Below, piece by piece: positions 27,669 through 47,038 of a DNA stretch of 62,131 bases; position 1 is the first letter of the stretch, and each line of letters begins with the position of its first letter. The stretch is from Phreatobacter sp. (GTDB taxonomy: Bacteria > Pseudomonadota > Alphaproteobacteria > Rhizobiales > Phreatobacteraceae), in the NCBI RefSeq assembly GCF_030691135.1, contig NZ_JAUYFA010000058.1, forward strand, positions 65,620 through 127,750, given 5' to 3'. Both the position numbers and the translations under genes were made by a program. The notes under the pieces are model-generated. The model ran no database searches, was not told the DNA's origin, and saw only the letters and a list, made by a program, of their open reading frames with translations.

Positions 27669-27720
27669 CCGGCGCTGTTCACGGCAGAGCAAGGCGGCGA
27701 CGGTGCGCCTTGGGACGAGC

Positions 27721-28980: not shown

Positions 28981-28985
28981 GGGTG

Positions 28986-29765
28986 TCAGGCCGAGTGCCG
29001 GGCCATCAGGTAGATCGCCTTCGGGTTGGTGACCGCATAGCGCCAGAAAAGGCGTCGCGGTTCCAGCCAGATGCGGTAGGCCCATTCGAGTGACGCCCGC
29101 TGCATCCAGGCCGGTGCCCGGCGATTGGTCCCGGACAGGAAATTGAACAGGCCGCCGGAGGTCTTGATCATCCCGACGCGGGTCAGTCTGTCGGCATGGT
29201 TCGCCACGAAACGCTGTTCGTGCGGAACGCCCATGGCGAGCCACAGGATGTCGGGTGCGAGAGCGTCGATCTCGGCGATCTTCGCCGTGAGCGCGGCACC
29301 GTCGAGGAAGCCGTGGCAATGACCGGCGATCCTGAGACGCGGATAGGTCCGGCGAATATTGGCGACGGCCCTGGCATTCTCGTCGGGCGTCGCGCCGAAG
29401 AGATAGAAGCTGGTCCCACTGTCTTCGGCGCGGCGTGCGACGTCGTGGAAGAGATCTGTCGTCGCCACCCGCTCGGGCAACGCGGTGCGGCAGCGGAGGC
29501 GGGAGGCGACCACCAGCGGCTGACCGTCGGCGACGATCTGGTCGGCCGCGCGCACGAGGGCCGCGAGCTCGGGCTCTGCCGCGACACGGGCCAGGACCTC
29601 GCCGTTGGCCGAGGTCAGGTAGAGCGGTCGCCGACCGCGCCGGCGCTCGCGGGCCGCCCGGATCATCCAGTCGGCGGTCGCGGCGCGATCAAGGACGGCG
29701 ATCGGAAGATCGCCGACCGTGACGGTCGGGATGGCGGCGAAGGCCGTGTCGAAGGGGTCGCTCAT
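28986..29765 (-). CDS. WecG/TagA/CpsF family glycosyltransferase
   Basis: The 259-residue protein belongs to the GT26 family, which adds a sugar such as ManNAc or ManNAcA to a lipid-linked intermediate at the membrane. Recognisable segments are TSANGEVLARVA, ADGQPLV, FLFGATPDENARAV-type (here YLFGATPDENARAV), LWLAMGVPHEQRFV near residue 175 and EWAYRIWLEPRRLFWRY near the C-terminus. The ATG at 29765 is one base from the stop of the chain-length gene. It probably extends the repeat unit of the neighbouring exopolysaccharide. Confidence 0.9.
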   Translation of the reverse strand: MSDPFDTAFAAIPTVTVGDLPIAVLDRAATADWMIRAARERRRGRRPLYLTSANGEVLARVAAEPELAALVRAADQIVADGQPLVVASRLRCRTALPERVATTDLFHDVARRAEDSGTSFYLFGATPDENARAVANIRRTYPRLRIAGHCHGFLDGAALTAKIAEIDALAPDILWLAMGVPHEQRFVANHADRLTRVGMIKTSGGLFNFLSGTNRRAPAWMQRASLEWAYRIWLEPRRLFWRYAVTNPKAIYLMARHSA

Positions 29766-29766
29766 C

Positions 29767-31257: not shown

Positions 31258-31379
31258 GGTCGGGTCCTTTCCTGGGCCTGTCCGGCCTGCCTCGGTGGAC
31301 GAGGCGTACCGGAGTGGAACACGAGACTTCGTTCGTGCTCATGCACCGCAAGGACGGGACCACCCGCTTCTGTCTCGAT

Positions 31380-32222
31380 TCAGGCGATACCGGCCCGATC
31401 GAGCGCCGCATCGACGGGAAGGATCGCAAAGCGCCGCTCGAGGGCACGGGCGACGACGCGCTCTACTACCCGCGGGGTCGTGCCGTAGATGCTCGGACTG
31501 TCGCAGACGTCATGGGTGAACAGGACGAGCCAGCCCCTGGCGGCCTCGGCTGCGTCCAGCCAGCGCTCGAGATTGGCCTCGGTGAGCGCTCGCGCGCTGA
31601 TCTCGACGGCCTTGACGAAGTCGAGGTCGACGCGGCCGGCATTGACCCCAGTCTGCACCGAGCGGCAGCTCCGCACGGTCCCAGCCAGGTGCTTCTTTTG
31701 CATCAGGCCGCAGAGACCGTAGGGATAGGCATAGTTCTCGCGCGTCAGCCCCGGAACGATCCGCCGCAAGGCCGCTCGGTTGGCGGCGAGATCGGCGACG
31801 AAGGCCGCGGGCCACATCCTGTTCGCCGGCTTGTGCGCATGGCTATGCAGCCCGATCTCATGGCCGCGCTCATGCAGATCGGCGACCTTGTCAGCCCCTG
31901 CGACCGTCCAGCGGCTGTCGGTCAGCCCGAAGAGGCCGGAGGCGGCATAGAAGGTGCCGCGGACGCCGTGATCATCGAGAATGCGCGCGCCGAGCTCGAA
32001 CGCCGATTGCGGGAAGTCGTCGAAGGTGATCGAGAGGATCGGCTGGTCGAGCGCGAGAGATGCCGTACGGAACGGGACGCGCCGTCCCACCATATGGCTG
32101 AGGCGCGGCAGAAGGCCACCGGAGCACACATCGCCGCCGTCGGGAGACGCACCACGGTCGTCATGCGGTCGTTCCTGCCTCGACGCGGGATTCGTCGTCA
32201 CCTTGCGGCTGTCCTCGATCAC
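31380..32222 (-). CDS. polysaccharide deacetylase family protein (NodB-like, CE4)
   Basis: The 280-residue product has a NodB-homology domain: the catalytic/metal aspartates in SITFDDFP, the metal histidines in GLHSHAH and the YAYPYG strand. Such enzymes remove N- or O-acetyl groups from glycans with a divalent metal. No signal peptide is evident, so it may act on cytoplasmic precursors or be exported by another route. I set the start at GTG 32222 because GGGAGG lies just before it; the ATG at 32093 is an alternative that still keeps the whole domain. It lies 122 bases upstream of the chain-length gene on the same strand. Confidence 0.82.
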   Translation of the reverse strand: MIEDSRKVTTNPASRQERPHDDRGASPDGGDVCSGGLLPRLSHMVGRRVPFRTASLALDQPILSITFDDFPQSAFELGARILDDHGVRGTFYAASGLFGLTDSRWTVAGADKVADLHERGHEIGLHSHAHKPANRMWPAAFVADLAANRAALRRIVPGLTRENYAYPYGLCGLMQKKHLAGTVRSCRSVQTGVNAGRVDLDFVKAVEISARALTEANLERWLDAAEAARGWLVLFTHDVCDSPSIYGTTPRVVERVVARALERRFAILPVDAALDRAGIA

Positions 32223-32410
32223 TCCCACCTCCCGGCTGACTGGCCTGTTTCCGGACAGAGTCGCACCTTGTCCGGATCGTTGGGAAGAAACTGGCAAGAG
32301 ACGCGCCAAACAACCGGCGGGCAGCCGTCACGCAGGCGGGACGTCCGGCGGCAAGCGGTTTGCTGCAGCAGGACAACCATCCCTGTCCGCACCCGCGTGA
32401 GGCCTTGATC

Positions 32411-33433
32411 GTGAACCAGGTTGAGACTGTCCCCATGGAAGTGTCCCGCAGCGAGACGTCCACCGAACCGGCGCTGTTCCAGACTGCCGGGCTGGTCGCC
32501 GACGCGGTGCGTGCCGTCGTCGTCGTCCCGACCTTCCGGCGTCCCGCCATGCTGGCCGAAACGCTCGCCTCGCTCGCCGCCCAGCGCACTGCTGTCCCAT
32601 TCGCGGTGGTGGTCGTCGAGAATGACGCGTCCGGCCTGGAGGGGCTCGCCGTCGCCAAGACCCGGCTGGCGGAGAGCGGCTTGCAGGGCCTGGCTTTCGT
32701 CGAGACCGCCCAGGGCAATGTCCATGCGATCAATGCAGGCTTCGCTCGGGCCATGGCCACCTTCCCCAGGGCGGACCACATCCTGATGATCGACGACGAC
32801 GAAGTCGCATCTCCCGGCTGGCTCGACGCCATGGTCACGGCCGCCGAACGGGAGGATGCGGACGTCGTCGGCGGTCCCGTCGTGCCGCGCTTCCGCGATG
32901 AGGCGCCGCGCGTGCTCGCCCGCCATCCGGTCTTCTGGCCGAGCCACGACCGCTCCGGCCCTGTTCCGATGATCTACGGCACCGGCAATTGCCTGATGCG
33001 GCGGCGCGTCTTCGCGCGTCTCGGCCATCGTCCGCTCGATCCCCGCTTCAATTTCCTCGGTGGCGGCGACATGGACTTCTTCACCCGCTGCCGGCGGGCC
33101 GGACTGCGCTCGTTCTGGGTCCAGGAGGCGCTGATCACCGAGACGGTGCCTGCGGATCGGGCCCGCATATCCTGGGTGCTGCGGCGGGGCATGCGGATCG
33201 GCTCGATCAACCGGGCCGTCGAGCTGAAACATGCGCCGGGCCTGGCCGGACGCCTCAGGATCATCGCTAAGGACATCGCGATCGTGCCGCTCGCGGTGCT
33301 GCGCGCGATCGGGACGCTGGTGCGCACCGGCAACCCCGTCGTCGCCGCCCATCCGCTCGCCGTCTCGGCCGGCCGCATCGCCGCCTGGGCCGGCGTCGAG
33401 CAGCAGCCCTACCGGGCAGGAAACGCCTCATGA
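32411..33433 (+). CDS. family 2 glycosyltransferase
   Basis: The 340-residue protein is a GT-A transferase. Its first strand is VVVVPTFRRPAMLAETL, with VVVENDAS, the metal-binding acid cluster MIDDDE and the acceptor-region GGGDMDFFTRC near residue 215. A hydrophobic segment near the C-terminus (about 280-300) may associate with the membrane. Start choice is uncertain: GTG at 32411 follows GAGG, while ATG at 32435 is also possible; the catalytic domain is unaffected. The stop overlaps the polymerase start (ATGA), beginning a three-gene plus-strand block with polymerase and GT-B transferase. Confidence 0.87.
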   Translation: MNQVETVPMEVSRSETSTEPALFQTAGLVADAVRAVVVVPTFRRPAMLAETLASLAAQRTAVPFAVVVVENDASGLEGLAVAKTRLAESGLQGLAFVETAQGNVHAINAGFARAMATFPRADHILMIDDDEVASPGWLDAMVTAAEREDADVVGGPVVPRFRDEAPRVLARHPVFWPSHDRSGPVPMIYGTGNCLMRRRVFARLGHRPLDPRFNFLGGGDMDFFTRCRRAGLRSFWVQEALITETVPADRARISWVLRRGMRIGSINRAVELKHAPGLAGRLRIIAKDIAIVPLAVLRAIGTLVRTGNPVVAAHPLAVSAGRIAAWAGVEQQPYRAGNAS

Positions 33434-34746
33434 GCACCGCCGAGGGCACCGGTTCGGCACGCAGCCTGCCGTCGGACGATCTCGCTCAGCTGATGCGCTG
33501 GGCGCGCGTGCTCGTCTTCGTCGGCGCGTTCCTGCTCGCCTGGGTGACGCTGGAACCCTATGCGGACCTCGGCAACAACTCCTCGCTGGAATTCGCCTTC
33601 GGCCAGGAGGGCACCGCCTATGCGGCCTATGGGATCCTGGCGGGCATCGCCGCCGTCATCGCGATCCTGACGCAGCCCAGGGCCGTGGCGACGCTGATCC
33701 ATCCGCTGTGGATCGCGCTCGCAGCCTGGCTTTCCTTCACGGTCCTCACCTCGGCGGACTTTTCGCTGTCGCTGCGACGCTTCATCCTGTTTGGCCTGAT
33801 CGCCGCGCTGACCGCATCGCTCTTCCTGATGCCGAAGGGCCGGCGCGATCTCGCGGGCCTGCTGATGGTCGCCGTCGGCATTCTCGTCGCCCTGTCGCTC
33901 GTCGGCATCGCGCTCTTTCCCGAATACGCCGTCCACCAGCTCTCCGACATCAGCGAGCCTCAGCTCGCCGGCGGTTGGCGCGGCGTCTTCGCGCACAAGA
34001 ACTCGGCCGGCGCAATCTTCGCGATGACCATCTTCATGATGATCTTCGCGATCCGCGCCGGCCTTGTGCCGGGCGGTTCCGTGCTCCTCGTGCTCTGTTC
34101 GCTCATCCTGCTGATGTCTGGGGCCAAGAGCTCCACCATGCTCCTGGTGGTCAGCCTGCTGGTCTCGTTGGCGGTTTCCCGCATCCGGAGCGGGTGGTGG
34201 GCCGGCGTCGTCGCCTTCACGCCGCTGGCGATTCTTTTGATCCTCGGCCCCGGCACCGTCGTCAGCGATGCGATTGCCGGCATCGTCCGCATGTTGCCGA
34301 TCGACGCCACCTTCACCGGTCGCGCCGACGTGTGGGAACTCGCCCTCGACAAGATCCGCGAACGGCCGCTGACCGGCTTCGGTTATTCCGCCTATTGGGC
34401 GCTGGAATCGACGCGCTTCGGCCAGGAGGACACAACCCAGTGGGGCGGTCTCGCGGCCCATGCCCATAACGGCTATATCGACGCAGCGCTCAACATGGGC
34501 ATCCCCGGTCTCGTGCTCGTGGTGGCGGTCTTCGTGATCTGGCCGCTGCGAAACTATCTCGCCGCGCGCGCCGGAGGCGCCGATCCGGCTCTCCTGCTGA
34601 TGCTGCTGCAGATCTGGCTGTTCGGGATCTATGTGTCCGTGCTCGAGAGCTTCCTCTTCGTCCGATTCGACCCGATCTGGATCACCTTCCTGTTCGCGGT
34701 CTTCGGCCTGCATTTTCTGGCGAGGCGCGCCCATGTCGCTGAGTGA
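33430..34746 (+). CDS. O-antigen ligase family protein (Wzy/ExoQ-like polymerase)
   Basis: The 438-residue membrane protein has about ten to twelve helices and the Wzy_C/O-antigen-ligase periplasmic loop, including GRADVWELALDKIRERPLTGFGY and the HAHNGYIDAALNMG segment. In an exopolysaccharide locus this is the probable polymerase that joins repeat units on the periplasmic side. The GVFAHKNSAG motif of the family is also present. It is translationally coupled to the family 2 transferase upstream and overlaps the next gene by 14 bases. Confidence 0.9.
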   Translation: MSTAEGTGSARSLPSDDLAQLMRWARVLVFVGAFLLAWVTLEPYADLGNNSSLEFAFGQEGTAYAAYGILAGIAAVIAILTQPRAVATLIHPLWIALAAWLSFTVLTSADFSLSLRRFILFGLIAALTASLFLMPKGRRDLAGLLMVAVGILVALSLVGIALFPEYAVHQLSDISEPQLAGGWRGVFAHKNSAGAIFAMTIFMMIFAIRAGLVPGGSVLLVLCSLILLMSGAKSSTMLLVVSLLVSLAVSRIRSGWWAGVVAFTPLAILLILGPGTVVSDAIAGIVRMLPIDATFTGRADVWELALDKIRERPLTGFGYSAYWALESTRFGQEDTTQWGGLAAHAHNGYIDAALNMGIPGLVLVVAVFVIWPLRNYLAARAGGADPALLLMLLQIWLFGIYVSVLESFLFVRFDPIWITFLFAVFGLHFLARRAHVAE

Positions 34747-35791
34747 CCGCGGCCAGGCCCGACTCGATGTTCTCGTCTCCGACACCGCGACACCCTGCGG
34801 CGTGGAGGCCTTCGCCCGCAGGCTGGCCGCGACCGCCGGTGACCGGGCCGCGTTGCGCCAGCTCGGCCATGGCCGCGGCGACGGCGTCCTGGTGATCAAC
34901 CTGCCGGTGGTCGCCTGGAAACGCCGGCTTGCCGATCCGGTTCTTGCGGCGGCCCAAGCCAGGGCGCAGGGCCGGCCCGTGCTCGTCATCCTGCACGAAT
35001 GGGCCGATCTCGACTGGAAACGCCGCGCCAGCTACGCGCCGCTGCTGCCCTTCGCCACCGCCGTGCTGTTCTCATCGCCCGAGGTCGCCGACCAGCTAGC
35101 CGCAGATCCGTTGTCGCGCCTTGCGCCGCGCCGGCGCGGCATCGTTCCGATCCCGCCCAACGTGGTTGCACCGGATGACCTGCCGTCGAACGAGACGGCA
35201 CGCCGCCTCGCCGAGGCGCGTCGTGGCGGCAAGCTCGTCCTCGGCCATTTCGGATCCATCTATCCGCGCAAGCAGTCGGCGCAGATCCTCGACCTGACCG
35301 CGGCGCTCAGGCAGCGCGGCGAGGATCCCTTCGCGGTCTTCATCGGCTCTTTCGTCAAGGGCCAGGACCGCGTCGAGGAGGACTTCAGGACGCGGGCGGA
35401 AAGCCTCGGGATCGCCGACCGCGTCCTCGTCACCGGCTATGTCGCGAGCGATGCCGATCTCTTCGCGCTCTTCGCCGAGGTCGACGTCTTCGCCTATCTC
35501 TTCGCCGAGGGGCTGACCAGCCGGCGCGGCAGCGTGCTCGCCTGTGCCATGTCCGGCCGCCCCGTCGTCGTCAATGCGCCGGAACGCCCGGGCGCCTTCG
35601 ACCACCACCCGACCTACCAGCGTCTGCTCGGCGAAGGCCAACTCAGGCTGGTACCACTGCGGGCGACGGTGGACGAGGTCGCGGCGGCGGTCGAGGAGGC
35701 AGCGGCCTTGCCGCGCCACGGCGCCCGCCTCGACGTTGCGGCCTCCTGGCGCGATGCGCTGGCGGCCGTCGACCGGGTCATGACCGCCTGA
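34733..35791 (+). CDS. GT-B fold glycosyltransferase
   Basis: The 352-residue protein has the two-domain layout of GT4-like transferases, with a hinge near residue 165, the LGHFGSIYPRKQ strand that opens the nucleotide-binding domain, and LVTGYVASDADLFALFAEVDVF before the donor site. The donor-site EX7E is altered: EGLTSRRGSVLACAMSG reads as a degenerate version. It is cytoplasmic, with no helix. The ATG lies 14 bases inside the polymerase gene, so expression is coupled. The sugar added is unknown. A strong terminator follows. Confidence 0.82.
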   Translation: MSLSDRGQARLDVLVSDTATPCGVEAFARRLAATAGDRAALRQLGHGRGDGVLVINLPVVAWKRRLADPVLAAAQARAQGRPVLVILHEWADLDWKRRASYAPLLPFATAVLFSSPEVADQLAADPLSRLAPRRRGIVPIPPNVVAPDDLPSNETARRLAEARRGGKLVLGHFGSIYPRKQSAQILDLTAALRQRGEDPFAVFIGSFVKGQDRVEEDFRTRAESLGIADRVLVTGYVASDADLFALFAEVDVFAYLFAEGLTSRRGSVLACAMSGRPVVVNAPERPGAFDHHPTYQRLLGEGQLRLVPLRATVDEVAAAVEEAAALPRHGARLDVAASWRDALAAVDRVMTA

Positions 35792-35901: not shown

Positions 35902-37344
35902 TCAGAAGGCGTTGTCGTAGGCCTTGCGGGAGAACACGGTACGGAACAGGATTTCGACATCGAGCAGGATCGACCAGTTGTCGATGTAGAAGAGGTCGTG
36001 CTCCACCCTGGCCTTCATCTTGTCGTCGGTGTCCGTCTCGCCGCGCAGCCCGTGGACCTGAGCCCATCCGGTAATGCCCGGCTTGACGTTGTGCCGCCTG
36101 GCATAGAGCGCAATCCGCTCGTCGAACTCCCGGTCATGGGCGATGGCGTGCGGGCGCGGCCCGACCAGCGACATCTGGCCGGCCAGCACATTGAGAAGCT
36201 GCGGCAGCTCGTCGAGATTGAGGCGCCTCAGGACACGGCCGACACGTGTGATCCGCTGGTCGTTGCGCGTCGCCTGACGGACCACGTCGCCGTCGTCCAT
36301 GACGGTCATGGTGCGGAACTTAACGATCTGGAACGCCCGCTGGTTGAAGCCGAGACGCCGCTGCATGAACAGGACCGGCCCCGGGGTGTCGAGTTTGATC
36401 GCGATGGCGACGAGGACCAGGACCGGCGTCAGCAGGAACAGCGCGAAGGACCCGAGCGCGATGTCAAGGACGCGCTTGGCCATCACCTCGCCGGCAGTCA
36501 GCGGCGGACGACCGAGCTGCAGGCTGGCGATGCCGCCGGCCTTGGCGATATGGACGTCCTGGAACCGGTCGAAGATCCGCTCGGGACCGAGATGGATGGT
36601 GACCGGAATGCGCATGAAACCATCGACCAGCCGGTCGATGGTTTCGGTCTGCGACCAGGGCACGATGATCAGGACATCGTCGAGTTGCATCTCGCGCGCC
36701 TGGCTGGCGATGCGGGCGATATCGTCTCGGCCGACCGGGCCGTCGCCGGGCGACAGGAGCCCAGTTCCGGCGATGTACATGCCCGCATTCCACGGCTGGT
36801 AGCGGCGGGCGAAATCCGAGACGTCATCCTCGCGGCCGACCAGCATGACGCGGCGGGCCGGGATGACGCCGAATTTGGAACCGAGCGTCATCAGCCGTCC
36901 CGTCAGTTCGCTGGCGACGAAGACCGCCGGCAATCCGACGAGGAAGGTCAGGATCACGGCGACGCGGGAAAAGGCGTCGGTGGTCTTGGTGGCGAAGGCG
37001 AAGGCCATCAGACTGAAGAAGGTGGCGCCCCACATGGTCAAGGTGGTGCCGAAGGTGCGCCGCGCACCGATATAATTGCCGATCTGATACTGGCTCCGCA
37101 CCGCGCTGAGCATGACGAAGGTGCTGGCGACAAGCATGGCGAGCGTCGCCTGTGAGGGCGTGGTCCACCACTCGCCGCTGGCGATCCGGCTGTAGAGCAG
37201 GGACGTCACATAGCTCGAGAGCGCGATCACCAGCCAGTCGACTGCGGCGGTGCACAGCTTCAGCGCGAGCCGCATCCAGGCATAGCCGCCTCGACCGCGT
37301 CGGGCGACGGCTCCGGCCGGAAGATCGAGTTCCTTCAACGTCAT
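35902..37344 (-). CDS. undecaprenyl-phosphate sugar phosphotransferase (initiating enzyme, WcaJ/ExoY type)
   Basis: The 480-residue protein starts exopolysaccharide synthesis by moving sugar-1-phosphate, usually glucose- or galactose-1-phosphate, onto undecaprenyl phosphate. It has four N-terminal helices (about 28-140), a Rossmann-like CoA-binding-type middle domain (about 160-280) and the catalytic bacterial sugar transferase domain (about 285-480) opening with KRVLDIALG. The latter includes FMQRRLGFNQRAF, FRTM, LRRLNLDELPQLLNVL, MSLVGPRP and KPGITGWAQV. The ATG at 37344 is chosen because the frame above it lacks coding character. The gene is 111 bases downstream of the double-hydrolase gene on the same strand and may continue that transcript. 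Confidence 0.93.
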   Translation of the reverse strand: MTLKELDLPAGAVARRGRGGYAWMRLALKLCTAAVDWLVIALSSYVTSLLYSRIASGEWWTTPSQATLAMLVASTFVMLSAVRSQYQIGNYIGARRTFGTTLTMWGATFFSLMAFAFATKTTDAFSRVAVILTFLVGLPAVFVASELTGRLMTLGSKFGVIPARRVMLVGREDDVSDFARRYQPWNAGMYIAGTGLLSPGDGPVGRDDIARIASQAREMQLDDVLIIVPWSQTETIDRLVDGFMRIPVTIHLGPERIFDRFQDVHIAKAGGIASLQLGRPPLTAGEVMAKRVLDIALGSFALFLLTPVLVLVAIAIKLDTPGPVLFMQRRLGFNQRAFQIVKFRTMTVMDDGDVVRQATRNDQRITRVGRVLRRLNLDELPQLLNVLAGQMSLVGPRPHAIAHDREFDERIALYARRHNVKPGITGWAQVHGLRGETDTDDKMKARVEHDLFYIDNWSILLDVEILFRTVFSRKAYDNAF

Positions 37345-37455
37345 GGCGTGAACCTTCGGTTCGCGTGCCCGGACTTGTCCCGTTTGGGGACGCCGGTCGG
37401 GCCCTCGGCAGGTCCATCGCAGATGCCGTGCCACGCCTCGGCGGGAAACGGCTGC

Positions 37456-39162
37456 TCAGGACGGGGTCTTGCTGCGCTTGGCAATGGCCGCTGCCCGGGC
37501 GATCAGGATGTCCCGGGCCGCAGGAGGTGTCAGGTCGTGGTCGGCCTGCGGCAGGATCGTCAACTGGACATTGTCCTGGCCGGCCAGCCAACGCCCGCCG
37601 GAGCCGAAATGCAGAGCCAAGTCGCTGAGCCCCGCATCGTTCTCGCTGAAGATGATGTCGACGGAGACGCGCCTTTCACTGAGCCGGCGCATGATCGCAC
37701 GCGCCTGCCTGGTTCCGTCGCTCGGTCGCAGCGCCCTGAGACGGTCGGTCGCACGCTTGCCGAAGGCATGGATCAGTGGGCCGACCTTGCGCTCGCCGGT
37801 CAGCAGCCGTCGCCAGGCGCGCGCCTCGAACACCTTCGCGGCATAGCTCGCCGCCAGCGGATAGGCCGATGCGATCGCTTCCTCGACGGTTTCGCCCGGA
37901 CGCCAGACGAAACGCTGTATATTGACGATGATGAGGCCGCCGATCCTTTCGTCGCGCGTCGCCTGCTGGAGCGCCAGATAGGCGCCGCTGCAGGCGCCGA
38001 GCAGCGTCACGTTTCCATAACCGCGGCCGACGAGCAGGTCGATCGCAACGCTGACCTGAGGCTCGTTGGCCTTGTTGTAGAGGACGCTGTCGAGACTGTC
38101 GGGGCTGCCGGCGCGGTCGCCCGCATCGCCGATTCCGGCCAGGTCCATCCGCAGCGATGCGATCCCCTGGTCCGCCAGTTCGCGCGCGAGCTGCACGCCG
38201 GACCGGGCCCAGCCGACATGGGAATTGCGGCCGGCATTGACGATCAGCAGAACCGGGCGGCCCGGCGCAGCCGTTTCGGGCTCGCAGAGCACGCCGAACA
38301 GACCCAGCTCCTCACCGAAGACCAGCGCTTCCTCGGTGAAGTGCGGTCCGGCGAGCAGGGCCAGGGCAGGGGGCGGGAGCGCGTCGGCGACCTTGCCGGC
38401 AAGCCCGTTCACCCACGCGACCGTGTCGGCCAGGACATCCGCAGGGGTAGCGGCCGTGGTCGGGCTGAGCGAGATCGCCTCGAAACCCCGGACCTCGGCG
38501 GCCGTGACGTCACCGGCGGCCCAGGCGCCGGCGAGCAGGCGCGCATCGGCGCTGCTCTTGCGCGAGAGCAGCAGAACCGGCGCTGCAGGCACCGCGAGCC
38601 GCTGCAGGTCAATGCCGCGCATCGACTCCAGCGTTTCGACCGAGGTCGTCAGCCCGGCGATCGACAGGCCCGCTTCCGTCGCGGTCTCATCCGGATCGAG
38701 CCGTGACGCTTCGGCGAGAGCCCTGGCCGTCATGGCCAGTTCGCGTGCGTAGAGCCGGCCCTTCACGACGGGATCGAGCAGGATCAGCCCGGCGAGGCCG
38801 GAGCGATCCCCTGCCGCCATCGCGGCGATGGTGGCACCGAAGCGCAGACCCGCATAGACGACCCCGCCGACGCTCGCATGACGCGCCAGGACGGTCGCCG
38901 CGTCGCCGGTCGCGGCGACCCAGGCGGCGATGCGATCGGGATCCGTATCGACGCCGAGGGAATCGGCCGTTCCCGGGAGATCGAAGCGCAGGGCGGCATG
39001 GCCGGCCTCGGCCAGGGCCTCCGCCATTCGGCGCAGCGTCTTCGTCGCCGCCAGCGCCTCGACACCGTGCGGCGGCACGATGACGACGCCGACACCGGAC
39101 CTGCGGCCCTCGTCAGGCAGATGCAGTTTGCCCATCAGGCCGTTGAACGTGATGGGGATCAT
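37456..39162 (-). CDS. double alpha/beta hydrolase
   Basis: The 568-residue protein contains two alpha/beta-hydrolase domains in tandem (about 1-265 and 280-568). In the first, the nucleophile elbow reads GLRFG (105-109), with Arg107 where a Ser is expected, so it is probably not a hydrolase. In the second, the elbow is GACSG with Cys391 as likely nucleophile, an aspartate follows in SENDAG and a histidine in QADHD near residue 550, giving a Cys-Asp-His triad. No signal peptide is visible. Its start overlaps the GH2 stop (ATGA), so it is the last gene of the carrier-protein operon. An acyltransferase or thioesterase acting on a carrier-bound acyl group is a reasonable guess. Confidence 0.8.
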   Translation of the reverse strand: MIPITFNGLMGKLHLPDEGRRSGVGVVIVPPHGVEALAATKTLRRMAEALAEAGHAALRFDLPGTADSLGVDTDPDRIAAWVAATGDAATVLARHASVGGVVYAGLRFGATIAAMAAGDRSGLAGLILLDPVVKGRLYARELAMTARALAEASRLDPDETATEAGLSIAGLTTSVETLESMRGIDLQRLAVPAAPVLLLSRKSSADARLLAGAWAAGDVTAAEVRGFEAISLSPTTAATPADVLADTVAWVNGLAGKVADALPPPALALLAGPHFTEEALVFGEELGLFGVLCEPETAAPGRPVLLIVNAGRNSHVGWARSGVQLARELADQGIASLRMDLAGIGDAGDRAGSPDSLDSVLYNKANEPQVSVAIDLLVGRGYGNVTLLGACSGAYLALQQATRDERIGGLIIVNIQRFVWRPGETVEEAIASAYPLAASYAAKVFEARAWRRLLTGERKVGPLIHAFGKRATDRLRALRPSDGTRQARAIMRRLSERRVSVDIIFSENDAGLSDLALHFGSGGRWLAGQDNVQLTILPQADHDLTPPAARDILIARAAAIAKRSKTPS

Positions 39163-41624
39163 GCTGGGACCTCGTAGGGGACTGGATAACTGTTGAGCGC
39201 CGCAACGACGCCCCGCGGGGCGGCGTCATCATGGCCACCGATGAGCGAAACGACACGCGTTTCGCCCGGCGCCAGGCTGAACCCCTGGTCGGCTGCACGA
39301 AAACCGGCATCGTCGACGGTGACGAAGCGAGCCAGCCGCTCGGTCGTGATGGAAACGGCGGGAGCGCCATCCTGGATCACCGGGCGCACCGATAGACCGA
39401 TGTCGCGGGGTGTGGCGGCGCGGCCGGCGACACAGTGGCAGGCTTCCGCCAGGAGGTCGCCGGTGTCGGGATCGACCAGGCGGGCCAATGTCGCGTCGTG
39501 GGCAAGGGGGCCGAAGCGATAGGCATGGGCCATGTCGAAGAACCGGCCGGCCAGCGTGAAACTGGACAAGCTCGTCTGCGAGCGCGGCGCGAGTGCCATG
39601 TCCTTCTCGGCACGAACGAGCGGATGCGGACCCTCGCCATAGGTCGCCAGCGTCAGCCGCACGCGCTTCGCCGATACCGTCTCGTTGGTGAGGTGGATGC
39701 CGAGCCCGTTGAGTCCCTCGTCAGTGATGCCGAGATGGATCGGCCGGAAGGCGCGCTTCAACGCGTGCCATGTGGTTTTCGGCTGCCCGAGCCGGTCGAC
39801 CACGCCCCAGCCGGCCCCCGGCTTCATGTCGTTGAGGAACCAGACGAGACCGCCGCCGCAGCGCGAGCCGGCGCGGCGCCATTCGGCGAAGACGGCTTCC
39901 ATCAGTTCGGCGGGCGCGGCCCGGCCGAGGGCGAGGTAGCGGTCCGGATCCTCGCGTCGCAGCGTCACGGGATCGACGGCGAAAAGGGTGCGGACATAAT
40001 GGTCGCGCACATCCTCGAAATCCCAGGACGCACCGGCATCGCGCGGCACGCCGTCCTTCCAGCCGGCCTCCTGCGGCGAGGCGAGGCCTTCCCGCGCCAG
40101 CGTCGCCGGCGCCGGGACATTGGCGAAGGCGAGGCATTCCGAGGCGAAGCGGACATCGGCGCGGCGGGCATCCTCGATCGGACGGCAATAGGCCCCGACG
40201 CCGAAATAGTGGGTGACGCCCTCGTCGGTGACGAAGGGCAGGGGGCCGCCCCAGGGCGTGTGCGGCACGTAGACCGCCTGCGGCGCGACGACGGCGGAGA
40301 CCGCTGCCAGCACCTCCTCGAACAGCGGCATGGCCGCCTGGTCCGGCCTCAGGCCGAGCATCGTCGCCTGCTGGGCGATCTCGCTGCCGCCGCAGACCAC
40401 GGCCAGCGAGGGCGATGCCTGCAGCCGGCCGAGGAGCGACCGGGTTTCGGCCTCGACAGCGGTCCGGAAGGCGGGATCATCGCCGGGATAGTCGAAATTG
40501 GCGAAGGGCAGGTCGTGCCAAACGAGGATACCGAGCGCGTCGCAGGCGACGTGGAAGGCGCGGCTCTCCGGCGTCGCGGTACCGGAAATGCGGATCATGT
40601 TCATGCCGGCATCGCGCGCCAGCGTCAGCAGGGGAAGCGGATCGGCGCCGCCCGGGGAGACCGGATCGGGCGGCATCCACGACGCGCCGCGGCAGAAGAC
40701 CCGTTCGCCGTTGACGATGAGTGCAAAGCCCTTGCCGTCTGGGCCGCGGTCGAGGGCGAGGGAGCGGAAGCCCACCGATCCACAATCGAGCAGCCACCCG
40801 CCGATGCGCAGGTGCACCGGGTAGAGCGTCGGCTCGCCATGGGTGTGAGGCCACCAGGGGGCGACACCCGGCAGCACCAGCCTTGCGGTGAGACGGCCGT
40901 CGGTGCCGGGATAGAGCGTCTGGGCGTGGCCGCCGCAGAGGATCTCGACCGGCGCGGCAGGGGAAGCGTCGAAACACAGGGAGACATCGAGCACGCCCTC
41001 GGTGCCGTCGAGGCGCGCCGCGAGTGCGAGATCGACCGGGCGGGGACCGTCATTGTGACGGCTCAGCGTCACCGATTGCCAGGGTCCGACGATCGCGACA
41101 TCGGGCGACCAGCCCGGCATATGGCCGAGCGGCGTGGTGCGCACCAGCCGCAGCGACCCCGGCTGGATCATCTGCGGCCGCCAGCGTTGCCGCGGGCCCT
41201 TGGCCGCGGCGAGGATGGGGTTGAGCGCGAGGAACCGGATGGCGAGCCGGTGGCGGCCGGTTGCGGTGATGTCGCAGGAGCGAGCCTCGAACATCGAGCG
41301 TGCCTCGAGCACCATCTCATCGTCGAGGAAGATGTCGGCGTGCCCGGCGAGGCCTTCGAAACAGAGCGTCGCCGGCCCTTCCGCATGGAAGCCGCAGCGA
41401 TACCAGACGTCCCGGTCGTGCAGGCCCGACGGCGTGCCGCGCACGAGGCGGCCGGCAGCGATCAGCGCTGCTTCCGCCGTCCCGGGCACCTGAGCCGCGA
41501 TCCAGTCGCCGCGTGAATCAGCCTCGGCCGGCGAGCCCGCGGCCCCCGGCTCCATGATGGCCAGCATCCAGCCCGCATCGAGCGGGACGAGGTCGTCGTC
41601 CTTTTCGCTGCGGATCGGATCCAT
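39159..41624 (-). CDS. glycoside hydrolase family 2-type protein (beta-mannosidase-like)
   Basis: The 821-residue protein has the GH2 domain order: N-terminal jelly-roll sugar-binding domain (about 20-190), an immunoglobulin-like domain (about 195-300), a TIM-barrel catalytic domain (about 300-600) and C-terminal beta domains. VFCRGASWMPPD and WHDLPFANFDYP match mannosidase-type GH2 sequences. Candidate catalytic residues are Glu415 in CGGSE (acid/base) and Glu496 in RFASE (nucleophile). No signal peptide is seen, so it may be cytoplasmic. The ATG at 41624 follows GAGG. It is 7 bases downstream of the DUF1839 gene in the carrier-protein operon, which suggests that the pathway product carries a sugar. 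Confidence 0.82.
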   Translation of the reverse strand: MDPIRSEKDDDLVPLDAGWMLAIMEPGAAGSPAEADSRGDWIAAQVPGTAEAALIAAGRLVRGTPSGLHDRDVWYRCGFHAEGPATLCFEGLAGHADIFLDDEMVLEARSMFEARSCDITATGRHRLAIRFLALNPILAAAKGPRQRWRPQMIQPGSLRLVRTTPLGHMPGWSPDVAIVGPWQSVTLSRHNDGPRPVDLALAARLDGTEGVLDVSLCFDASPAAPVEILCGGHAQTLYPGTDGRLTARLVLPGVAPWWPHTHGEPTLYPVHLRIGGWLLDCGSVGFRSLALDRGPDGKGFALIVNGERVFCRGASWMPPDPVSPGGADPLPLLTLARDAGMNMIRISGTATPESRAFHVACDALGILVWHDLPFANFDYPGDDPAFRTAVEAETRSLLGRLQASPSLAVVCGGSEIAQQATMLGLRPDQAAMPLFEEVLAAVSAVVAPQAVYVPHTPWGGPLPFVTDEGVTHYFGVGAYCRPIEDARRADVRFASECLAFANVPAPATLAREGLASPQEAGWKDGVPRDAGASWDFEDVRDHYVRTLFAVDPVTLRREDPDRYLALGRAAPAELMEAVFAEWRRAGSRCGGGLVWFLNDMKPGAGWGVVDRLGQPKTTWHALKRAFRPIHLGITDEGLNGLGIHLTNETVSAKRVRLTLATYGEGPHPLVRAEKDMALAPRSQTSLSSFTLAGRFFDMAHAYRFGPLAHDATLARLVDPDTGDLLAEACHCVAGRAATPRDIGLSVRPVIQDGAPAVSITTERLARFVTVDDAGFRAADQGFSLAPGETRVVSLIGGHDDAAPRGVVAALNSYPVPYEVPA

Positions 41625-41631
41625 CGGAGCC

Positions 41632-42645
41632 TCAGGAGGCCGCCCGGATGAGCGTCCGGGTTTCTGCCATGGGAAAGCGCAGGGCTTCGGCCAGTTCCGC
41701 CATGAGCCGGTCGTACTGCCCTGCGGTCTCGTCGAGGGCGGCGGCGAGCGCGTCGGTCTTCTTGCGCGCCAGGGCGCGGGCAAGGAGGAACTGGAAGGTC
41801 TTCATGCCGTTCGCCATCGCCTCGCACGCCGCCACGGCGTCGTCGAGGCCGGCGACACCCTGGCCGCGGAGCCAGGCGAGATGGTCGCCCAGCAAGGCGA
41901 TATTGGCGCCGAACTGGCGGGCGGTGTTGAAGGCGTAGGGGTGGAACGAACTGGCCGGCTGCGTCGCCAGCCAGTCAAGATGGCGCTGCATCGCCGCGCG
42001 ATAGGCGAGTACCGGGTTGCGCGCGGGCCGGCGGGCCCAATGCGAGGCGAGGCGTGCCAGTGCGGCATCCTTCAGAGCCCGGCCCGACAAGCCCGGCCCG
42101 ACAACCTTCACGAATTCCGTATAGGGCGGCAGGAGCGGCGTCGGCACGGCGCCAAAGCCGAGGAGATGCTCGACATCGGCCCCCTCCATCTCGAAATAGC
42201 CGGCATTGTGGAAATAGCCGAGGCTCGACGTCGTACGGTCGAAGCTGTTCACCGCGATCGTCGTCTTGGAATGGTCGGTGCGGTAGGTCACGCCTTGGGT
42301 GTCGGGCAGGAAATGCGCGTCGACCTCGACCAGCACGATACGGCCGCGGGCGACCTGCTCCTCGAGGTGGTCGACCAGTGGCCGGTAGATCGACAGTTCC
42401 TGCAGGTCGAGCCCGAACAGCCCGTCGAGGTCGCCGTTCGGGATCTTGAAGAAGGTGAACTGGTCCCCCTCGAAATCCTGCGCGAGGGTCATGCCGAGAG
42501 CTGCCGCCGGCTCGCGGCCGAGCGTGTGCAGGAGCTCGATGAAGAGATCGGTGTGGCAGTTGGTTTCCGGCCAGGCCCGGCCGGCATCATGCAGGCCATG
42601 GCGCCGGTAGGTCGCCGCCGAGAGCTGGGGAAAGATCGCTGCCAT
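41632..42645 (-). CDS. DUF1839 family protein
   Basis: The 337-residue protein belongs to DUF1839, found with amino acid:carrier-protein ligases in Rhizobiales. Its function is undescribed. The first 135 residues look like the papain-like N-terminal domain of BtrH: a potential nucleophile Cys30 in ETNCHTD, then QFTFFK, a VEVDAHFLPD strand with Asp109 and His111, and His125 in TDHSK. BtrH moves an acyl group from a carrier protein to an aminoglycoside. The C-terminal half (about 190-337) is helical. The start lies 3 bases after the ligase stop. The transferase role is my inference from this resemblance and from gene order. Confidence 0.85.
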   Translation of the reverse strand: MAAIFPQLSAATYRRHGLHDAGRAWPETNCHTDLFIELLHTLGREPAAALGMTLAQDFEGDQFTFFKIPNGDLDGLFGLDLQELSIYRPLVDHLEEQVARGRIVLVEVDAHFLPDTQGVTYRTDHSKTTIAVNSFDRTTSSLGYFHNAGYFEMEGADVEHLLGFGAVPTPLLPPYTEFVKVVGPGLSGRALKDAALARLASHWARRPARNPVLAYRAAMQRHLDWLATQPASSFHPYAFNTARQFGANIALLGDHLAWLRGQGVAGLDDAVAACEAMANGMKTFQFLLARALARKKTDALAAALDETAGQYDRLMAELAEALRFPMAETRTLIRAAS

Positions 42646-42648
42646 GGT

Positions 42649-43566
42649 TCAAATCCCCAGCGACTGGCGCACCGAGGCCGGCCAGCGCTTCACGTTGGTG
42701 CCGTAGTGCTTCAGCAGGGCGAGGATGACCCGCTCGTGACCGAAGCCGACGCAGGCCGTATGCGCGACCTCGTCGCCCGCCGTCGTCAGGCCGAAGGTCT
42801 TGCCGAAGTGATCCTGGTGGTAGTTGAACGACAGGCAGGCGGTCGGGTTCTCCTCGCTTTCGATGGCGATGAGGAGCTCGAATTTCAGGCGCTGGTCGCG
42901 CTGGTTGACGGCGAGCATCTTGCCGGCACGGCCGAAGAAGGGATCGTTGGCGACGTCGACCATGAAGGGCAGGCCGAGTTCGCCGATCATCGCCTGGCCG
43001 CGCTCCAGCCAGGCGGCGCGGAACTCGGTGACCTGGTCCGGCGTGCCCATGCGGACGAATTCGCGCATCCGGAAAAACTGCTGGCGCGCCGGGTCCTTCG
43101 AGGGCTCGTGGCGGAAGCAGTAGGACATCAGGTCGAAAAGCCGCCCCTCGGCGGGCAGGGTGCCGCGCTTCGCCGCCGTCGGGTAGAGCGGGTAGCAGGC
43201 GGCGGGCGTCAGCACGATCTCGCTCGCCTTCTGCCCTTCGGTCCAGTCGCCGCCCTGCTCGATGGTCTGCAGCAGGCTGACATGGTCGGCCGGGTTGCCG
43301 CAGAAGCAGTGGACCGTGCCGGCGAGCTGGGGGAAGCTCTTCATGTAGCCGGACTTCTCGAAGATCGAGCGCGACATGGCAGGCGGAAAACGCACCACTT
43401 CCGGGTCGTCGGCACCGCCATAGCGGGTGACCAGCGCCTGGAACCCGTCGCCGATGGCCTCGAACAGGCCGGAGCGGCCATAGAGGCCGTCGACGCCGGT
43501 ATCGATGAGCAGGCCCTGGTCGAAGAGTTCGTCGAGGAACGTCGCGGTCTCGGTCTTGGCGAGCAT
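42649..43566 (-). CDS. amino acid--[acyl-carrier-protein] ligase
   Basis: The 305-residue enzyme is a truncated class II seryl-tRNA-synthetase homologue lacking the tRNA-binding arm. Such enzymes, first described in Bradyrhizobium japonicum, activate glycine or alanine with ATP and transfer it to the phosphopantetheine of a small carrier protein instead of tRNA. Motif 2 is [12 protein letters not shown] (151-162) and motif 3 GFGHER (274-279). Cys124, Glu169 and Cys272 have the spacing of the active-site zinc ligands known for atypical seryl-tRNA synthetases. Amino acid preference (Gly versus Ala) cannot be read directly. It is flanked by its carrier protein operon partners. Confidence 0.93.
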
Positions 43567-43569
43567 GTC

Positions 43570-44763
43570 TCAGTCCTCCAGATCGGTGTCGAGACGCGAC
43601 ATGAGGAGCATGGTCGCGGTGTTGGCGAGGATTCGGTCATTGGCGATCATCAGCGGCGCCGACAGGATGTCGCGCAGCTGGCGGCCGATGGAGAAGGGAT
43701 TGTCGTTCTTGTAGCCCTGGATGCCGACGATGGTCAGCGCCTCCTGGACGATGGCGACGGCGCGGCGCGAGGCCTCGATCTTCACCGCATTCATGGCGAC
43801 GGCGAAGGCCATGGAATTGATCGCCGCCTCGTCATGGCGCGCCACCTCGAAGCGGGCGATGCCGTCGCGGACGATGGTCTTCAGAGCCGCGAGTTCAGCG
43901 GCCGCGGCGGCGAGACGGGCGGCGCCCGGCGGCACAGCGTTCGGCATGCGGCGAGCGGCGGCGCGCACGCTCGCCTGTGCCTTCGACAGGGCCGAACCGG
44001 CGATGCCGAACCACAGCGAGGCCCAGAACAGATGCGAGCTCGCCAGCATGGACTGGGCCGCGATCTCGGCGAAGGGCTTCGGGAAGACCTGCGCGGCCGG
44101 CACGGTGGCAGCCAGCTTGAAGCCGTGCGAGGTGGTGCCACGCATGCCGAGCGTGTTCCAGACTGAGGTCTGCTCGAGGCTCGCCTGTGCCTTCTCGATG
44201 ACGACCATGACCTGGTCGGAGGACGCGGCATCCGGTGCGCGGCGGGCGGTCGCCAGGATTGCGTCGGCATCGAGCCCGTAGGAAATGACGGTCGCGTCCT
44301 TCTCCAGCCGCACCATGTCGCCCTCGGGCACGATGGAGCAGATCGAATTGCGCAGGTCGCCGCCGATGCCGCCCTCGGTCGTCGCCGAGCCGAGGAGCAA
44401 CTGTTCCGCGGCGAGGCGGACCATGAAGTCGCGGTGCCAGTCGCTGTCCAGCCCGTGATGGACCAGGCTCGACGTTTTGATCTGGTGCATGGCGAAGACC
44501 ATGCCGGACGCCGAACAGGCGGCTCCCAGCGTGGTGCAAACCCGGGCGACGTCGGCGAAATCGGCGCCTTCGCCGCCGAGATGGGTCGGAATCATCATGC
44601 CGAGCAGGCGCGCCTCACGCATGGCGGCCACCGCCTCGCGGGGAAAGCGTCCGTCACGGTCGACCGCATCCGCGTGGGATGCCGCCACCTTCGCGACCTG
44701 CTTGGCGCGTGCGGTGAAATCGGTGCCCTGCGGCACGCTCCGGGGTTCCGACCTGTCGAGCAT
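43570..44763 (-). CDS. acyl-CoA dehydrogenase-like flavoprotein
   Basis: The 397-residue protein has the acyl-CoA dehydrogenase fold: an N-terminal helical domain (about 1-125), a beta domain (about 125-235) with LLLGSATTEGGIGGD for flavin and substrate binding, and a C-terminal helical domain (about 240-397). The usual catalytic glutamate of the YEGT-type motif is not seen; the aligned region reads IANDRIL. The VGIQGYKNDNPF segment keeps the family's glycine-tyrosine pair. Acting in an operon with a carrier protein, it may oxidise a carrier-bound aminoacyl group, as prolyl-carrier-protein dehydrogenases do, rather than a CoA thioester. It lies 2 bases after the carrier protein gene. Confidence 0.88.
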   Translation of the reverse strand: MLDRSEPRSVPQGTDFTARAKQVAKVAASHADAVDRDGRFPREAVAAMREARLLGMMIPTHLGGEGADFADVARVCTTLGAACSASGMVFAMHQIKTSSLVHHGLDSDWHRDFMVRLAAEQLLLGSATTEGGIGGDLRNSICSIVPEGDMVRLEKDATVISYGLDADAILATARRAPDAASSDQVMVVIEKAQASLEQTSVWNTLGMRGTTSHGFKLAATVPAAQVFPKPFAEIAAQSMLASSHLFWASLWFGIAGSALSKAQASVRAAARRMPNAVPPGAARLAAAAAELAALKTIVRDGIARFEVARHDEAAINSMAFAVAMNAVKIEASRRAVAIVQEALTIVGIQGYKNDNPFSIGRQLRDILSAPLMIANDRILANTATMLLMSRLDTDLED

Positions 44764-44765
44764 GA

Positions 44766-45017
44766 TCAGCCCCCGACATTCTCGGAACGCAGCTCTTCGA
44801 GAGCGGCGCGGATCGTGGCGATGGAGGAGAACAGCCGGCGGTTCAGCATCCGCTCGGGGAACTCCACGTCGAACGCCTCTTCGAGCGCCAGCATGAGCTG
44901 CACCGATCCGAACGAGGTCATTCCGGCCTCGTAGAGATCGCTCGTGTCGACGAGGTCAGTGACGCCGCCCGGCAGTTCAACCGTCTTGGCGATGATATCT
45001 CGGATCTTGACGTTCAT
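44766..45017 (-). CDS. acyl/aminoacyl carrier protein
   Basis: The 83-residue protein is a phosphopantetheine-binding helical carrier. The attachment site is Ser35 in EAGMTSF, where the usual DSL of fatty-acid carriers is replaced by TSF, as I recall for carrier proteins served by amino acid:carrier-protein ligases. The next helix is VQLMLALEEAFDVEFPE. The ATG at 45017 follows AAGGAG. It is the first gene of the minus-strand operon and would be the central scaffold for the ligase, flavoprotein and DUF1839 partner. Fatty acid synthesis is an unlikely role given this context. Confidence 0.92.
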   Translation of the reverse strand: MNVKIRDIIAKTVELPGGVTDLVDTSDLYEAGMTSFGSVQLMLALEEAFDVEFPERMLNRRLFSSIATIRAALEELRSENVGG

Positions 45018-45584: not shown

Positions 45585-45661
45585 TGGTAGCGGGAGGCAG
45601 AGTCGAACTGCCGACCTCAGGGTTATGAATCCTGCGCTCTCACCAACTGAGCTACCCCGCC
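45585..45661 (-). tRNA. tRNA-Met (CAT)
   Basis: A 77-base cloverleaf reads from 45661 to 45585 on the minus strand. The acceptor stem starts GGCGGGG, the D arm is AGCTCAGTTGGTGAGAGC, the anticodon loop TTCATAA contains CAT, and the T arm contains GTTCGACTC. The CCA end is encoded (45585-45587). D-loop and acceptor stem resemble elongator methionine tRNA rather than initiator; a CAT-anticodon isoleucine tRNA cannot be fully excluded without modification data. Confidence 0.92.
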
Positions 45662-45729: not shown

Positions 45730-46377
45730 TCAAGGTGACCCGGACGGGGTTTTGCCGCCGCGGCGCGCCAGATACCCGTCGAGCCAGACGAGTGTCACGG
45801 CCAGGGCCGCGAAGACCGCCGTGACCACGACGGCGTTCTGCAGCACCGTCCGGTAGCCGAACCGCCCGGCATCGAGGAAAGGGTAGGGGTACCAGCCGTC
45901 GACGGCCCCGCGGGCCATCGCATAGGCGAAGAAGGTCAGCGGATAGATCAGCCATGCCGGCAGATCGGCGCGTTTCAGGGCACCTCTAGGTGCAAAGCCG
46001 AGCCACATCACCAGAGCGAGCGCCGGAACCACGCCGTGGAGCAGGGAATCGGCGACCCTCTGCCAGCCCTCGGGATCCCCGGTCGGCCTCAGCACGAGCC
46101 AATAGATCAGCGCCACGACGGTGATGTAGAGCGTCGCGGCGCCGTGGAGCGCCGCCGCGATCGACCGTCCGGCAGCCATGACCGTCATCAGGCAGGCCAC
46201 GATAATGTTGGTCAGAATGGTGAAGAAGCTGAAATAGTCGAGGATCGCACCGGCGACCGATCCGCCCGCTGCCAGGCTGGCGCCGATGCTGAGGGCGAGT
46301 TGCAGGGCGAGGGCGCACCAGCCGAGTGCCGCGGACAGTCCGGCGAGGGCCTGTGCCGGGGTGGCCGAAAGCGTCAT
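45730..46377 (-). CDS. Pr6Pr family membrane protein
   Basis: The 215-residue protein has six hydrophobic helices and matches the Pr6Pr (FAR-17a/AIG1-like) group of bacterial membrane proteins. DYFSFFTILTN after the second helix, the WLVLRPTGDPEGW loop and YPYPFLD near the C-terminus are characteristic. The function is unknown; eukaryotic relatives in this superfamily hydrolyse fatty-acid esters of hydroxy fatty acids, but the catalytic threonine and histidine would need alignment to confirm. It is 28 bases downstream of the pmtA-like gene on the same strand. Confidence 0.85.
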   Translation of the reverse strand: MTLSATPAQALAGLSAALGWCALALQLALSIGASLAAGGSVAGAILDYFSFFTILTNIIVACLMTVMAAGRSIAAALHGAATLYITVVALIYWLVLRPTGDPEGWQRVADSLLHGVVPALALVMWLGFAPRGALKRADLPAWLIYPLTFFAYAMARGAVDGWYPYPFLDAGRFGYRTVLQNAVVVTAVFAALAVTLVWLDGYLARRGGKTPSGSP

Positions 46378-46405
46378 GGCCGTCCTCGCATCCGGGGCGA
46401 CGCCG

Positions 46406-47038
46406 TCAGGCCGCGGCCTTCTTGAAGCGCACCTGCGTAAACAGCCCGCCGAACCCGGCCGGCTTCTTCTCGACCATCGTCAGGTCCTTCTGACCCATGA
46501 CGCGGTCGAACGAGAAGTCGGGGTGCCAGCCCAGCTTGTCGCCGAAAGGCGCGGCGGCCTTCTCGATCCAGGCCCGCAGGCCGCCCTCGGCGGCGAAATG
46601 GTTGACGAGGATGACCTCGCCGCCGGGCTTGCAGACGCGGTTCAGCTCGGCCATCACGCCTTCCGGATCCGGCACCACGGTGATCAGGTACATCGCGACG
46701 ACACAGTCGAAGCTGGCATCACCGAAGGCGAGCCTGCCGGCATCCATCTGCAGAATGCCCTCGACATTGGTCAGCCCCTCGTCGACGCGCTTGCGGGCGA
46801 TGCGCAACATGTCGAAGGACAGGTCGAGCCCGATGACACGGCAGTTCGCGCCATAGTCCGGAAGCGCGATCCCGGTGCCGACGCCGACCTCCAGAATACG
46901 CCCGCCGACCCGGGACGCCGCCGCCACCGCAGCCTTGCGGCCGGTCGTGGTGATGCGCCCGAAGATCGGATCGTAGATCGGCGCCCAACGCGCATAGGCC
47001 TTCTGGATGGACTGGGCGTCGAGTTCGGCGGCTTGCAT
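46406..47038 (-). CDS. pmtA: class I SAM methyltransferase, phosphatidylethanolamine N-methyltransferase-like (PmtA)
   Basis: The 210-residue protein has the SAM motif LEVGVGTGIALP (about 49-60), then GLDLSFDML and LNRVCKPGGEVILVNHF. The N-terminus (AYARWAPIYDPIFG) is typical of the Rhodobacter/Rhizobium PmtA group that methylates phosphatidylethanolamine three times to phosphatidylcholine at the inner membrane. The related UbiE group differs in its N-terminal segment. The ATG follows CCGGAG. Order mnmA-pmtA-Pr6Pr on one strand with short gaps suggests co-transcription. Confidence 0.85.
   Translation of the reverse strand: MQAAELDAQSIQKAYARWAPIYDPIFGRITTTGRKAAVAAASRVGGRILEVGVGTGIALPDYGANCRVIGLDLSFDMLRIARKRVDEGLTNVEGILQMDAGRLAFGDASFDCVVAMYLITVVPDPEGVMAELNRVCKPGGEVILVNHFAAEGGLRAWIEKAAAPFGDKLGWHPDFSFDRVMGQKDLTMVEKKPAGFGGLFTQVRFKKAAA

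Follow-up and report, generated by a model that had tools for sequence, protein, structure and literature searches.

A six-gene operon on the minus strand of a 62,131-nucleotide stretch of Phreatobacter sp. DNA (the whole stretch analysed, hereafter the window) encodes what is, on balance, probably a self-contained aminoacyl-amide pathway that serves a surface glycan. In this pathway, an amino acid:[carrier protein] ligase would activate a small amino acid (Gly or Ala) and load it onto the phosphopantetheine (Ppant) of a small carrier protein (CP), and the amino acid, once tethered, may be oxidised by a flavoprotein, with the nitrogen or its vicinity as a plausible site. A DUF1839 protein would take the aminoacyl group onto its Cys30 and hand it to an amine, in the manner of CcbD from the lincosamide pathway; the likeliest acceptor is an amino sugar within a polysaccharide unit linked to a nucleotide or a lipid. 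Finally, a GH2 glycosidase and a Cys-type protein of two alpha/beta-hydrolase domains (HYD) would process or further acylate the unit ahead of export. The loading step and the transfer by DUF1839 are predicted from protein family, fold and conserved residues; we infer the oxidation by the flavoprotein, the processing by GH2 and HYD, and the glycan acceptor.

Operon layout and conservation

The operon (37456-45017, minus strand) comprises the following genes, in the order of transcription:
44766-45017, minus strand: carrier protein (CP), 83 aa (PF00550 and NF005480, both above cut-off; Ppant Ser35)
43570-44763, minus strand: flavoprotein of acyl-CoA-dehydrogenase fold, 397 aa (PF02771/PF00441; model; fold matches)
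42649-43566, minus strand: amino acid:[carrier protein] ligase, class II aaRS-like, 305 aa (NF005479; homologue Bll0957)
41632-42645, minus strand: DUF1839 protein, 337 aa, candidate aminoacyl-CP:amine amide synthase, Cys30 (PF08893; model; PDB matches)
39159-41624, minus strand: GH2 glycosidase, beta-mannosidase-like (PF22666, PF17753; 5n6u match)
37456-39162, minus strand: HYD, two alpha/beta-hydrolase domains (TIGR03101/TIGR03100 regions, below cut-offs; residue counts)

The coordinates bear out the original prediction of six minus-strand genes with overlaps or gaps of 7 bases or less: the gaps are 2, 3, 3 and 7 bases, and the one overlap, of 4 bases, is that between GH2 and HYD (the GH2 start was taken at an inner ATG; the mechanical ORF begins upstream at a TTG). 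Upstream of the operon lies a tRNA-Met gene (45585-45661), and beyond it (45730-47038) are a Pr6Pr-family membrane protein and a PmtA-like protein (phospholipid N-methyltransferase), the latter scoring below the PmtA cut-off.

Gene order was scored in 99 loci (the 80 best named-genome loci, 18 further stretches and the window), from which the near-identical copies L030, L109 and L112 were removed to give 96 distinct loci. The order CP-flavoprotein-ligase-DUF1839-GH2 on one strand is kept in 89 of the 96, window included (92/99 before removal), and the five genes thus form a genuine unit. The 80-locus set is biased toward the query, since the named-genome scan gave at least 577 DUF1839 relatives and the 80 best were kept; the DUF1839 proteins of the set include the closest relatives, which are 69-93% identical and carry the labels Phreatobacter, Rhizobiales, Hyphomicrobiales or Proteobacteria. 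Median gaps between the five successive genes in this set (L030 still included) are 2, 10, 6 and 28 bases, and DUF1839 and GH2 are separate entries of the ORF list in L064. There are seven exceptions to the five-gene order: a contig end truncates the locus upstream in L014, L027 and L053, GH2 was not found in L057, L066 (a 4.3 kb contig) and L118, and L104 is a second DUF1839 paralogue without the operon. HYD is present within ~10 kb in 59 of the 89 loci with the five-gene order. In a phylum sample, DUF1839 is present in 16 of 398 genomes. Two genomes of one genus carry the second DUF1839 paralogue (L102 12232-13452; L104 88-1299), which adjoins Wzz and a HYD gene in both and lies ~4 kb from a full operon in L102.

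The residue counts given below (denominators 79, 78, 77, 75 and 56) come from L006-L085, of which L030 is the only near-identical locus, and short or stop-containing sequences were removed beforehand.

Predicted loading of the carrier protein

CP matches NF005480 at 99.6 bits (cut-off 72) in addition to the PP-binding family PF00550, its Ppant serine (Ser35) is present in 78/78 aligned sequences, and its gene adjoins the ligase region in the window operon. The ligase matches the amino acid--[ACP] ligase family NF005479 at 489.6 bits (cut-off 357), and has a solved homologue, Bll0957 (3mey/4h2w), with E about 1e-96 to 1e-99. The zinc ligands of Bll0957, which we take to be C131, E176 and C279, map through the Bll0957 alignment to C124, E169 and C272. 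These presumed zinc ligands are intact in 79/79 ligases of the DUF1839-type loci, and in 11/11 of a second type. That the ligase would load CP, as originally predicted, is backed by its family, fold and neighbourhood, and by the retention of the three presumed zinc ligands.

The ligase lies beside DUF1839, by coordinates, in 18/18 DUF1839 genomes. In the phylum sample it is found above cut-off in 28/398 genomes, with weaker homologues below cut-off in a further 16/398, and 12 genomes have it above cut-off without DUF1839. Of the loci in the latter, 11 of 12 were examined (G623 was left out). The flavoprotein adjoins the ligase in 11/11, CP is on the opposite strand in 9/11, and no DUF1839, GH2 or HYD was found within the stretch in any of the 11. 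The median identity to the window ligase is 47% in this type, versus 66% in the DUF1839 type. Next to C272, ligases of the DUF1839 type have A271 and G274, and those of the other type have G and A, a pattern that would fit a larger pocket in the DUF1839-type enzyme.

Bll0957 is a member of the same ligase family, with CP and flavoprotein genes nearby in related genomes. Going by gene tags (bll0957 adjoins bll0958, an acyl-CoA dehydrogenase), it seems to belong to the DUF1839-less type, the loci of which differ from the operon by the absence of DUF1839, GH2 and HYD nearby (11/11). Because such loci exist and Bll0957 is seemingly one of them, its amino acid, which we take to be glycine (that of the Agrobacterium enzyme being presumably alanine), is not simply transferable to the operon ligase, and alanine is the more likely substrate of this ligase sub-type. 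According to a 2022 review (PMC9437257), amino acid:CP ligases load Gly, Ala or Ser.

A comparable arrangement is the Dlt system. In D-alanylation by Dlt, a stand-alone ligase and a small carrier decorate a surface polymer, the ligase being an adenylation enzyme and the transfer being carried out by an MBOAT protein. The operon shares the stand-alone ligase and the small carrier, with a CP that is weakly DltC-like, but its ligase is not an adenylation enzyme, and DUF1839 would replace the MBOAT transfer. Among the weak ligase homologues below the NF005479 cut-off, one lies beside an MBOAT acyltransferase (PF03062; L131 4511-10231) and another beside a PP-binding carrier (PF00550; L134 6941-8424), which looks like a Dlt-type arrangement with a different transferase. 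The ligase match in L110 (G465:C23:92354-93265) holds one in-frame TAA, which may reflect a decayed gene or a sequencing error.

The flavoprotein

The model of the flavoprotein has a mean pLDDT of 86.5, and its fold matches interleave the flavin monooxygenases TdsC/DszC, acyl-CoA dehydrogenases (ACADs) and KijD3, so that the fold model failed to discriminate between a dehydrogenase and a monooxygenase. At the MCAD-type site, as placed by alignment, the catalytic Glu is absent, with Ile or Val in 76/77 sequences and a gap in one. An invariant His244 lies near the alternative ACAD Glu site. The flavoprotein may act on the tethered amino acid as an oxidase or a monooxygenase. If glycine is the substrate in the second locus type, as we presume, the flavoprotein relative there cannot carry out alpha,beta-desaturation, since glycine has no beta carbon.

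The GH2 glycosidase and HYD

The GH2 protein matches the GH2 beta-mannosidase 5n6u (E 2e-41), and the acid/base and nucleophile Glu residues, located through the 5n6u alignment, are both kept in 75/75 sequences. A hydrophobic N-terminal stretch was not seen in its sequence, and it is thus probably cytoplasmic.

HYD had been described in the original prediction as a double hydrolase for trimming or release. The two alpha/beta-hydrolase domains stand, but the nucleophile of domain 1 is lost, its position being occupied by Arg (26) or Gly (30) in 56/56 sequences, and domain 2 has a Cys nucleophile (Cys391 in 56/56, Asp509 in 55/56 and His542 in 56/56). With domain 1 dead and domain 2 carrying a Cys nucleophile, release is no likelier than transacylation, and a putative Cys-based acyltransferase or thioesterase describes the protein better. 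HYD scores below the cut-offs of the exosortase A-associated hydrolase families TIGR03100 and TIGR03101 (124.0 versus 168.45 and 68.2 versus 202.75 bits). It is fused behind a Wzx flippase in 13 distinct loci, in proteins of ~1100 residues of which HYD is the C-terminal half, and the Wzx and HYD genes overlap by 4 bases in L108.

Polysaccharide genes around the operon

The genes downstream of the operon, with their family matches, include:
35902-37434, minus strand: WcaJ-type undecaprenyl-phosphate sugar phosphotransferase (TIGR03023, 411.1 bits, cut-off 410.75)
34631-35791, plus strand: glycosyltransferase (Pfam)
31380-32309, minus strand: polysaccharide deacetylase (Pfam)
29767-31257, minus strand: Wzz (Pfam)
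28986-29984, minus strand: WecG/TagA-type transferase (Pfam)
26241-27668, plus strand: Wzx (Pfam)

In the polysaccharide locus (26241-35791), 10 ORFs were put to Pfam, of which 4 gave no match; a GH10 (xylanase-family) gene (24895-26241, plus strand) adjoins Wzx.

The sugar phosphotransferase had been placed 111 bases downstream of the operon, a distance that is obtained with an inner ATG at about 37344. As a link to polysaccharide synthesis, this exact neighbour is lineage-specific. A match to it near DUF1839 occurs in 5 of the best 80 loci, all of a Phreatobacter-like group, and among the 18 whole genomes a sugar phosphotransferase (Bac_transf) is within 10 kb of DUF1839 in 4, versus 0.26 expected. 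These four are the host itself and three members of a single family from a different class; in two of them, L102 and L103, 119 and 27 bases separate the end of the Bac_transf gene from CP. Polysaccharide genes in general, by contrast, do recur.

A fairer measure of this recurrence than locus counts comes from Pfam counts in the 18 whole genomes, comprising every DUF1839 genome seen, in which the nearest PF13440 (Wzx) or PF02706 (Wzz) match was located. Chance expectations were derived from the number of matches and the genome sizes. Against these, 9/18 genomes have Wzx or Wzz within 15 kb of DUF1839, where at most 0.72 would be expected (tail about 6e-9); at 10 kb the figure is 6/18 (at most 0.49 expected) and at 20 kb 10/18 (at most 0.95 expected). 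The 18 genomes are not independent, as they represent 14 genera, of which 7 are positive at 15 kb. In a separate count, among the 81 distinct loci flanked on each side by 8 kb or more, 49 have glycan families near DUF1839 (51/84 before removal of near-identical loci), a figure biased upward because the HMMs were seeded on the neighbours of these same loci. None of these glycan-family HMMs matched in L118 and L119, which belong to another order of the class. A survey of DUF1839 neighbourhoods had been put forward as a check on the polysaccharide link; the outcome in which DUF1839 is never near glycan genes did not occur, given the Wzx/Wzz enrichment and the recurrent glycan genes. Two further candidates were discarded: sugar aminotransferases (PF01041), as makers of the acceptor, were not found near DUF1839 among the matches listed, and the polysaccharide deacetylase (3/18 genomes within 15.5 kb, a distance chosen after seeing the data, versus 0.71 expected, p about 0.03) was too weak. 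Both outcomes weigh against the glycan pathway.

Neither Wzx nor Wzz was found within 15 kb in the other 9 of the 18 genomes, which counts against a glycan as the acceptor. This half would be accommodated by a product that is a small diffusible aminoacyl-sugar, resembling lincosamides or mycothiol, the amide of which never enters a polymer and the polysaccharide genes of which are merely neighbours. CcbD, a fold match of DUF1839, produces a small molecule, and the GH2 protein without a visible hydrophobic N-terminus also agrees with this idea, but the Wzx/Wzz enrichment and the fusion of HYD to Wzx speak against it, and we regard it as unlikely, if the strongest of the alternatives.

DUF1839 as a candidate amide synthase

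The assignment of the transfer step to DUF1839 (PF08893, 377.8 bits), made in the original prediction, is backed by the predicted fold, which is that of carrier-dependent amide synthases. An AlphaFold model built with 39 aligned sequences (mean pLDDT 91.9) is matched by 19 PDB chains at E of 0.001 or below. All are AziU3, CtaG or CcbD, aligned over nearly the full length with TM about 0.5-0.6 and rmsd 5.6-8 A; the CcbD matches have E 1e-5 to 3e-4, and AziU3 and CtaG score better. The likeness is confined to structure: phmmer with DUF1839 gave no solved relative at E 1, and a profile search for solved relatives gave vinculin alone (E 0.27) and did not find CcbD.

In a study of CcbD (PMC12945683), proline held on a carrier is moved first to a Cys of the enzyme and from there to the amine of the lincosamide thiooctose. 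In the reaction proposed for CtaG (PMC6772006), the acyl group and the amine that receives it are both carrier-bound. With CcbD/LmbD, DUF1839 has in common the fold over nearly the full length and a single conserved Cys, and the passing of a carrier-bound amino acid to an amine is the reaction proposed here for DUF1839. It differs from them in the lack of detectable sequence similarity, and the CcbD/LmbD system uses an adenylation domain, unlike the operon with its aaRS-like ligase.

The following residues of DUF1839 are each identical in 79/79 sequences: Cys30, E107, His125, Lys127, His146, Glu177, His235, Tyr237, Arg243, Gln244, Lys282, Gln285 and Arg290. By comparison of residue numbers, the C30-H146 spacing of 116 is close to the 112 of C19-H131 in CcbD (C19 from the PDB title, H131 from PMC12945683), and K282, Q285 and R290 resemble, by spacing only, the CcbD carrier contacts R316, Q319 and R324 given there.

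Fold likeness at an rmsd of 5.6-8 A on its own leaves the reaction of DUF1839 unfixed, and this, together with the missing sequence similarity to CcbD, counts against the amide-synthase reading. In a 2023 JBC classification (PMC10318531), the fold of DUF1839 is papain-like and its site is C-(T/S)-H; the protein is placed in a superfamily made up mostly of hydrolases, and an acyl-CoA-dependent processing of glycans is suggested. DUF1839 could accordingly be a hydrolase rather than an amide maker, with a thioesterase or amidase activity directed at editing or unloading the carrier or at trimming a glycan amide. The full-length fold matches are to carrier-dependent enzymes, however, and the peptidase matches, of which staphopain is the next in the PDB, are partial and weak, which makes a hydrolase improbable.

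Relation to published predictions

The end product had been put forward as undescribed. The proposal itself is not new: a near-identical prediction was printed in 2010 (PMC2922099), and a related one in 2023 (PMC10318531). A note added in proof to the former lists an ACP, a redox enzyme, a class II SerRS-like ligase, a conserved uncharacterised protein, a glycosidase and saccharide genes, and predicts that the amino acid is ligated to the amino group of a cell-surface sugar by Atu2574, with the redox enzyme modifying the aminoacyl moiety. From this description and the Agrobacterium loci L021 and L059, we infer that Atu2574 is the DUF1839 protein. The genes and the proposed amide are the same and nothing essential differs; the fold of DUF1839, HYD and the statistics are added by the present analysis. 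The 2010 idea came independently, from gene neighbourhoods, and counts in favour of the amide. The scheme of loading, optional oxidation, transfer, and trimming or release is largely plausible and matches this published prediction.

The role of the amino acids on these carriers is still called unknown in the 2022 review (PMC9437257). In the open-licence literature, a single paper mentions DUF1839 by name, and searches on the Agrobacterium genes and on N-alanyl or N-glycyl sugars found no experiment on the operon, although one may exist elsewhere. The present analysis adds a fold assignment for DUF1839, reinterprets HYD and shows it fused to Wzx, finds the dehydrogenase Glu missing from the flavoprotein, separates two locus types, and tests the enrichment near Wzx/Wzz genes.

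A role in peptide synthesis or EF-P modification is very improbable: a 2010 PNAS title cited in that review ties amino acid:CP ligases to nonribosomal peptide synthesis, and three clusters upstream of CP in 24-31 of the best 80 loci are by-eye candidates for efp-epmB-epmA, but the operon has no condensation or peptide-synthetase domain, efp-like genes are missing from many loci, and glycan genes turn up repeatedly across different orders and beyond the class. The upstream conserved clusters, with by-eye candidates for efp, epmB and epmA, are seen in L068 (4555-7377) and in similar Rhizobium loci.

Returning to the aminoacyl-amide pathway for a surface glycan, a more specific form of it is conceivable, if rather doubtful: a route free of both NRPS and tRNA might provide an amino sugar of a Wzx/Wzy polysaccharide with an aminoacyl amide in oxidised, e.g. 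N-hydroxylated, form, and the carrier-bound units might serve as a toolkit in which the transferase can be exchanged (DUF1839 in this operon; MBOAT or others in the distant ligase loci).

With DUF1839 placed by its fold among synthases that act from carrier to amine, including one whose acceptor is an amino sugar, the 2010 prediction becomes a two-protein assay. If true, the pathway would account for an operon whose DUF1839 protein has at least 577 relatives in named genomes, many of them in plant-associated Alphaproteobacteria, and surface glycans would be decorated with aminoacyl groups by a route that needs neither adenylation domains nor tRNA.
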